From Umbilicaria muhlenbergii (lineage: Eukaryota; Ascomycota; Lecanoromycetes; Umbilicariales; Umbilicariaceae): DNA of 64,000 nt. Below the pieces are notes generated by a model. That model was not told the origin of the DNA and searched no databases. It saw only the letters and a list, made by a program, of their open reading frames with translations. This document shows, piece after piece, positions 4,284 through 4,434 of this stretch (the first letter of the stretch is position 1; each line of letters begins with the position of its first letter). A program made the translations under genes and the position numbers. The stretch covers positions 3,810,858 through 3,874,857 of the forward strand of contig KK106982.1 of assembly GCA_000611775.1 (NCBI GenBank), read 5' to 3'.

Positions 4284-4288
4284 AAAAA
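4284..4288 (-). terminator. RNA polymerase III oligo-T terminator
   Basis: Five consecutive T on the minus strand lie 12 nt after the discriminator base of the tRNA-Asp gene, within a T-rich stretch. This is a normal Pol III stop signal. Confidence 0.7.
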
Positions 4289-4334
4289 GAAATTGAGATG
4301 CTCTCCATCTGGGAATCGAACCCAGGTCTCCCGC

Positions 4335-4344
4335 GCTTGGCTTG
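4335..4344 (-). other. Canonical-position tRNA intron (37/38), about 10 nt
   Basis: Eleven nucleotides (TCAAGCCAAGC) separate A37 from the 3' anticodon-stem strand GCGGG where one is needed, so about 10 nt are extra. The exact boundary is ambiguous by one base (4335-4344 or 4336-4345). Intron CAAG pairs with CTTG around the anticodon, as expected for a substrate of the tRNA splicing endonuclease. Confidence 0.75.
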
Positions 4345-4356
4345 ATGACAAGCGGA

Positions 4357-4408
4357 CTAGGTATTTGTTAGTGGTGATCACAGACAAGCGCAGGCGAAGG
4401 AGGCTCAC
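4357..4408 (-). other. Spliceosomal-type intron inside the tRNA gene
   Basis: This 52-nt insertion lies between tRNA positions 26 and 27, not at the usual intron site. On the transcribed strand it begins GTGAGC, has CACTAAC 12 nt before its end, and ends CCTAG. These are the donor, branch site and acceptor of Pezizomycotina mRNA introns. Its length matches protein-gene introns in this window (49, 50, 51 and 52 nt), and the donor GTGAGC recurs at the first intron of the glycosyltransferase at 48407. Excision restores a normal anticodon stem. That it is removed by the spliceosome is inference. Confidence 0.7.
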
Positions 4409-4434
4409 AATCATGACCACTAGACCAATGAAGA

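Follow-up and report, generated by a model that had tools for sequence, protein, structure and literature searches.

Bhattacharya and co-workers reportedly described, in 2000, spliceosomal introns in the nuclear rDNA of lichen-forming ascomycetes. Earlier, in 1989, Tani and Ohshima are said to have found an mRNA-type intron in the U6 gene of fission yeast. From the lichen system an rDNA intron of 57 bp with the 5' site GUAAGU in RNA polymerase I transcripts is described; yeast which is given such a lichen intron, its 5' site adapted, removes it (PMC8527467). The fission-yeast U6 intron is located near the catalytic nucleotides and is thought to have arisen by reverse splicing (PMC10484740). 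Non-canonical tRNA introns are reported for archaea, Cyanidioschyzon merolae and nucleomorphs, and these endonuclease introns are set by a bulge-helix-bulge (PMC4090602). In a 2026 review tRNA splicing is classed as spliceosome-independent (PMC13149111). A search of the open-licence literature, with subscription papers mostly outside its scope, found no spliceosomal intron in a tRNA gene, and the excerpted text of PMC11782384 contains nothing on spliceosomal introns of tRNA genes.

The window analyzed here comprises 64,000 nucleotides from the lichen-forming fungus Umbilicaria muhlenbergii (G000:C2:3810858-3874857) and is part of a genome of 34.8 Mb in 7 contigs. On its minus strand, to which all features below belong, a tRNA-Asp(GUC) gene extends over 134 nt (4301..4434); once two inserts are removed 72 nt remain. 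Exon 1 (4409..4434, tRNA positions 1-26) provides the 5' acceptor strand and the D arm. It is followed at 26/27 by a spliceosomal-type intron of 52 nt, GTGAGC...CTAAC...CCTAG (4357..4408), with a predicted branch site CTAAC at 4367..4371, whose A at 4368 is 11 nt away from the intron 3' end. Exon 2, TCCGCTTGTCA (4346..4356, positions 27-37), carries the anticodon GTC at 4349-4347. A canonical 37/38 tRNA intron of 10 nt, TCAAGCCAAG (4336..4345), separates it from exon 3 (4301..4335, positions 38-73), which ends with the discriminator G73 at 4301. The A box TGGTCTAGTGG (4417..4427) is uninterrupted. The B box GGTTCGATTCC (4312..4322) was also returned by the B-box pattern scan of the genome (G000:C2:3815169-3815179), and a T5 run at 4284..4288 is a probable RNA polymerase III terminator. 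The 52-nt block resides in a tRNA gene, not in rDNA, and at 26/27, not at the Sen-type 37/38 site which is occupied by the separate 10-nt intron.

Most of this anatomy had been proposed in a first-pass annotation made from the letters alone, i.e., a complete tRNA-Asp(GUC) with A and B boxes, G73 and T5; an extra 52 nt between positions 26 and 27 with a GTGAGC start and a CCTAG end; about 10 further nt at 37/38; and a 72-nt cloverleaf after both removals. All of it is borne out from 4434 to 4301, with the block at 4408-4357 and the small intron at 4345-4336. The CTAAC near the 3' end of the block is likewise present; its distance, given as 12 nt, measures 11 nt for the branch A. After removal of both inserts the acceptor stem has 7 bp and 20 of 21 arm pairs are standard, the exception being a U-U at the D-stem pair 13-22. 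Measured against the criterion for tRNA pseudogenes, a loss of cloverleaf pairing or of promoter boxes, the gene has kept its pairing and has intact A and B boxes. Folding energies are unremarkable (z -1.80 for the intact precursor, -0.56 for the spliced precursor, -0.72 for the mature tRNA); in its minimum-energy fold the spliced tRNA lacks a D arm, and the energy does not surpass that of shuffles. An 8-mer, CGCTTGTC, is present twice, inside the 52-nt intron (4408-4357) and at the exon 2 anticodon (4356-4346), and in the predicted fold of the intact precursor the intron stretch with this 8-mer pairs with the 3' anticodon region.

Standard tools do not recognize the gene. Neither the tRNA finder as run nor Rfam with its gathering cut-offs placed a tRNA in the window. 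ARAGORN with introns allowed reads the intact gene as Thr; with the 52-nt block removed it reads Asp(gtc) with a 10-nt intron. A scan of viral contigs for exon 1 together with the intron start gave no match.

The window gene, which the first-pass annotation had treated as a lone oddity, is 1 of 13 such genes found. The census drew on Rfam tRNA matches (63 of 1258 candidates scored), on all 76 GGTTCGANTCC places, on 35 of 53 GGTTCGANCCC places (25 of these 35 as stretches of about 210 nt), on the first 30 GGTTCGANNCC places and on Asp patterns; a gene was counted only if script or eye found a T arm, an acceptor and an A box. This yielded 32 assembled tRNA genes, 31 of them with a readable isotype, the isotype names being the anticodon loop as we read it. 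In 13 of the 31 there are GT-AG blocks, 15 altogether, which measure 50-58 nt and occupy 13 different sites; the ends in L013, L109, L113, L139, L161 and L163 were set visually when the pattern was already known. Because the census is limited to the listed B-box patterns and places, 13/31 is not a genome-wide fraction. The interrupted genes are the window gene and L009 (both Asp), the Asp-like L013, Arg(ACG) L042, Gly(CCC) L045, Leu(AAG) L084, Ser(AGA) L109, Ala(AGC) L113, Leu(CAG) L133, Phe(GAA) L139, Thr(TGT) L141, Lys(CTT) L161 and Ile(AAT) L163.

The blocks are located at 11/12, 13/14, 14/15, 19/20, 20a/21, 24/25, 25/26, 26/27 (twice), 28/29 (twice), 30/31, 31/32, 47/48 and 48/49; the D-loop sites 19/20 and 20a/21 follow our own count, and 47/48 and 48/49 lie one and zero nt ahead of the T stem. 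After removal, non-standard pairs in the 13 genes amount to 8 of 273, i.e., one D-stem pair in each of six genes, an acceptor pair in L139 and an anticodon-stem pair in L161. ARAGORN then agrees with our isotype in 11 of 13 genes, calling L133 SeC and L141 Ala. From the intact DNA of the same 13 genes it makes no call for 4 and reports another isotype for 9. Thus tRNA tools miss or misname such genes, in the case of ARAGORN 13 out of 13.

Several observations were made alongside the census. By our parse 37/38 introns of 7 to 43 nt are present in 24 of the 31 readable genes (the window gene and 23 others), which is a high share. The locus L076 (B box G000:C1:5609920, minus strand) is tRNA-like: its acceptor, D and T arms are good and a T10 run is present, but in the anticodon-loop region no single cut of 30-89 nt restores a tRNA. 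L098 (G000:C2:6093636 region) and L086 (G000:C1:9143925 region) are tRNA-like repeats which end in TTCRATTCCTATTRGCGCTA, with two copies and one copy, respectively; perhaps they represent a tRNA-derived repeat element. L140 (G000:C1:10594996-10595067, minus strand) is an Rfam tRNA match of 40.5 bits; its anticodon is CAT, its T arm is poor, and it is perhaps organelle-derived or decayed.

Do the blocks carry the marks of mRNA introns when their ends are not presupposed? Cuts of 40-69 nt were ranked by a hand-made cloverleaf score alone, with the respective other block of L009 and L013 removed beforehand, and terminal dinucleotides were counted afterwards. For the window gene 1700 cuts were scored, and the joint best are the GT...AG cut and its 1-nt slide. 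Over all blocks GT-AG is within the exact best-score set for 8 of 15 (next end pair 2), so that in the other 7 the exact optimum of the cloverleaf score lies with other ends. Within 0.65 score units of the best it is found for 12 of 15 (next end pair 5), and within 2.05 units for 15 of 15, as the sole end pair to do so (next pair 8). A 5' site resembling GTRAGY, with a score of at least 3 of 4, is present in 14 of 15 blocks compared with 10.7% of all GT in the window. All 15 blocks show a CTNAY-like branch site at a distance of 10-12 nt to the 3' end; as the search picks whichever match is best in the vicinity of that end, it cannot come up empty, and with shuffled interiors the mean was 1.04 and the maximum 5 of 15 (2000 sets).

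The mRNA introns of the same window provide the yardstick. Six were delineated in the genes for UTP7, AP-3 sigma and LeuRS, with lengths of 45-74 nt, branch distances of 10-14 and similar signals; they were placed via homologous proteins, and as automatic placement was ambiguous for several, ends were chosen by eye assuming GT-AG. Three of the six branch matches are imperfect (CTAAG, ATAAC, CTAAA). The block length of 50-58 nt falls within the range of these six; the first-pass annotation had put mRNA introns nearby at 49-52 nt. For LeuRS the best named match is from Umbilicaria vellea (94% identity, with unnamed matches up to 95%). For UTP7 (94%) and AP-3 sigma (96%, with 71% of the query covered) the best named matches are from Lasallia pustulata; Lasallia belongs to the Umbilicariaceae within the Lecanoromycetes. 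The title of the first-pass annotation, an mRNA-type intron plus a canonical tRNA intron, thus has support: the 5' splice site, the branch site with its spacing, and the length speak for it, as do empty-site paralogues and the recurrence in 12 more tRNA genes. An introner-like origin of the blocks was considered and rejected: the 15 introns compared among each other gave one 11-nt match, and compared with the window gave only themselves and one 14-nt match.

For genes of the Asp type the genome was searched with patterns for the 5' half and for the 3' half of the gene, each with at most three mismatches, and 24 and 11 places were listed, respectively. Both scans arrive at the same trio of Asp-type genes: L023, which is the window gene, L009 (C3) and L013 (C1). 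The T-arm and acceptor script found two Val genes among the remaining 21 places of the first list and zero tRNA genes among the remaining 8 of the second. Suppressor-like anticodons were suspected in L021 and L028 but rejected: both are Val genes, with the anticodons CAC and UAC, and both have a 37/38 intron. In L009 the blocks lie at 31/32 (GTATGT...CTTAC...ACAG) and 47/48 (GTAAGC...CTAAC...ACAG), in L013 at 26/27 and 48/49, and both genes have a 37/38 intron in addition. All three genes are 72 nt long after removal; L013 differs from the window gene in 3 and L009 in 4 of the 72 exon positions, those that distinguish L009 being 6, 49, 63 and 66.

L009 is without the 26/27 block and reads GATT-TCCGC unbroken. 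This is the natural empty site for the window intron. Conversely, the exons of the window gene are uninterrupted where L013 has its 48/49 block and where L009 has its 31/32 and 47/48 blocks. Each Asp-type gene therefore is an empty site for blocks of another. The 26/27 introns of the window gene and L013 agree in 13 of 32 interior positions, and the splice signals are kept. Since this interior identity is not above that of shuffles (373 of 5000), the shared position is the basis on which common descent of the two introns may be considered. In the exons of the three genes all 60 cells of 20 named pairs are standard (the unpaired D-stem pair 13-22 excluded). Two pairs covary: 6-66 is A-U, C-G or G-U, and 49-63 is U-A or G-C. 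The pairing count was equalled by 67 of 500 shuffles, and with three sequences only the covariation is supportive, not proof. L013 (G000:C1:1191755-1191944, minus strand) also shows an anticodon GTT, due to a change at position 36, and a C at T-loop position 54; it may be decaying, or it may be an Asn-reading tRNA on an Asp body.

The gene anatomy, the mRNA-type signals at many sites, the empty-site paralogues and the preserved cloverleaf pairing are observations. They are best explained, in our view very probably correctly, if the 52-nt block represents a spliceosomal intron of the U2 type and the tRNA-Asp gene around it is a working nuclear gene whose maturation takes two machines, the spliceosome and Sen. 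RNA polymerase III is the most likely enzyme to transcribe the gene, using the A and B boxes within it and ending at the T5 run. The spliceosome would take the 26/27 intron out as a lariat while the precursor is still unfolded. The restored tRNA body would then be cut at 37/38 by the Sen endonuclease, and the fungal tRNA ligase would seal the two halves. We infer from the sequence which polymerase acts, in which order the steps follow and that splicing takes place. Such a maturation would extend to the 12 further block-bearing genes; for 4 of the 13, which lack a 37/38 intron, the spliceosome alone would suffice. As all three Asp-type genes found are interrupted, decoding of aspartate would depend on the spliceosome. 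A wider proposal we hold with less confidence, yet consider likely: in this lineage of lichen fungi the spliceosome may be an essential tRNA-processing machine which acts ahead of Sen on polymerase III precursors, for ten amino acids and for all three Asp-type genes, with intron gain and loss among paralogues and with insertions even into A boxes.

Which polymerase provides the precursor is the point at which the nearest competitor departs. The introns could be spliceosomal and the genes transcribed by RNA polymerase II, alone or within longer polymerase II transcripts. This is a variant of the preferred explanation, and the odds of the two overlap; as a distinct proposition we rate it as unlikely. 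Spliceosomal introns normally reside in polymerase II transcripts. Further, a block splits the A box in L109 (7 positions matched), L113 (5) and L161 (5), compared with 8 of 8 positions in the DNA of the remaining 29 of the 32 tRNA genes, and a block within the A box should weaken initiation by polymerase III. Against polymerase II stand the otherwise intact A boxes, the absence of an internal run of five or more T in any of the 32 genes (0/32), and a T4 or longer run 3' of all 32 (stretch read, up to 60 nt). Because of the A and B boxes, the missing internal T runs and the T run after each gene, transcription of the interrupted genes by polymerase III is favoured. The blocks of L141 and L161 do contain a T4. 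Nor is a spliceosomal intron in transcripts of other polymerases without precedent. Fission-yeast U6 is a polymerase III RNA with a spliced mRNA-type intron (PMC10484740), and lichen rRNA introns of the spliceosomal type leave polymerase I transcripts (PMC8527467). In the U. muhlenbergii genome one U6 gene was found, and it is without an intron.

Next, the interrupted genes could be dead, with tRNA-Asp supplied by intact genes that were missed or lie outside the assembly. The changes in L013 at anticodon position 36 and T-loop position 54 would fit such a decay; the scans tolerate at most three mismatches, and the tRNA census is incomplete. We nevertheless think this very improbable. The first-pass annotation had named many intact tRNA-Asp genes elsewhere, together with a mature tRNA never detected from this locus, as the mark of a pseudogene and had called for a genome count: the count is three Asp-type genes, each interrupted by GT-AG blocks, and the two half-gene scans gave no uninterrupted tRNA-Asp. 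The window gene and L009 retain a cloverleaf with the two compensated pairs, and splice signals are retained though the intron interiors differ. Finally, blocks of this kind also interrupt genes to which we assign the isotypes Ile, Phe, Lys, Thr, Leu, Ser, Ala, Arg and Gly.

Marginally less credible still is a third possibility, that the blocks are ectopic Sen introns of the bulge-helix-bulge type, as in archaea, red algae and nucleomorphs, and that GT...AG is coincidental. Sen endonuclease is known to measure the tRNA body, and blocks in the D arm would break the body which is measured. The signals GT, branch site and AG, common to 15 of 15 blocks, are not expected for Sen introns. Sen alone is thus disfavoured by the shared GT, CTNAY and AG together with the position of several blocks inside the D arm. 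A bulge-helix-bulge test is of limited help, as it separates the classes weakly: at least 3 of 4 central-helix pairs can be formed in 5 of 15 blocks, in a fraction of 0.416 of random segments and in 14 of 24 canonical introns. The Sen reading draws no support from this test, nor does the test speak decisively against it. Non-canonical bulge-helix-bulge tRNA introns are indeed known in eukaryotes; those named for the Guillardia theta nucleomorph measure 3-24 nt (PMC4090602). A reading of the blocks as degenerate group I introns of very small size we regard as the most improbable of all. In its favour, fungal rDNA introns measuring 56-81 nt have been put forward as tiny introns of group I (PMC3160393), and many degenerate group I introns are described in lichen rDNA (PMC8527467). 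Against it, the blocks have GT-AG ends and a branch site at constant spacing, as do the window's mRNA introns, and Rfam gave no match in the window at its gathering cut-offs. Of the three mechanisms which the first-pass annotation had offered for the window gene, spliceosomal removal therefore fits best, Sen alone recedes, and polymerase III is tentatively favoured over polymerase II.

If spliceosomal removal holds, the occurrence of mRNA-type introns in many tRNA genes, including all Asp-type genes found, would breach the rule that tRNA splicing is independent of the spliceosome. It would also provide a natural system in which to ask whether the spliceosome can serve uncapped polymerase III transcripts with a first exon of only 11 nt, as in L161, by what arrangement a single precursor is shared between two splicing machines, and how new genes acquire introns. 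Under the wider proposal the tRNA supply, and hence the growth rate, would be coupled to splicing capacity, much as has been proposed for lichen rDNA introns, which are suggested to slow growth (PMC8527467; PMC6652019); introns in tRNA genes could add to this slowing.

How, then, do the blocks compare with the systems described so far? Canonical Sen introns at 37/38 coexist with them, as the 10-nt intron of the window gene illustrates, yet these have a fixed position, are devoid of GT-AG ends and of a branch site, and are handled by other enzymes. The non-canonical introns described in PMC4090602 resemble the blocks in that they are inserted in the D arm, the anticodon stem or the T arm, sometimes several per gene. 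They differ in being endonuclease introns, whereas the blocks share mRNA splice signals. With the U6 intron of fission yeast the blocks have in common a spliceosomal-type intron in a small RNA, which is transcribed by polymerase III there and, as we favour, also here; the difference is that U6 is one gene, while here many tRNA genes are interrupted at many sites. The rDNA introns of lichen fungi are likewise short and of the spliceosomal type, occupy an ectopic place in the gene for a structural RNA, and are attributed to the spliceosome. They reside, however, in rRNA made by polymerase I, whereas the introns of U. muhlenbergii described here are located in tRNA genes.
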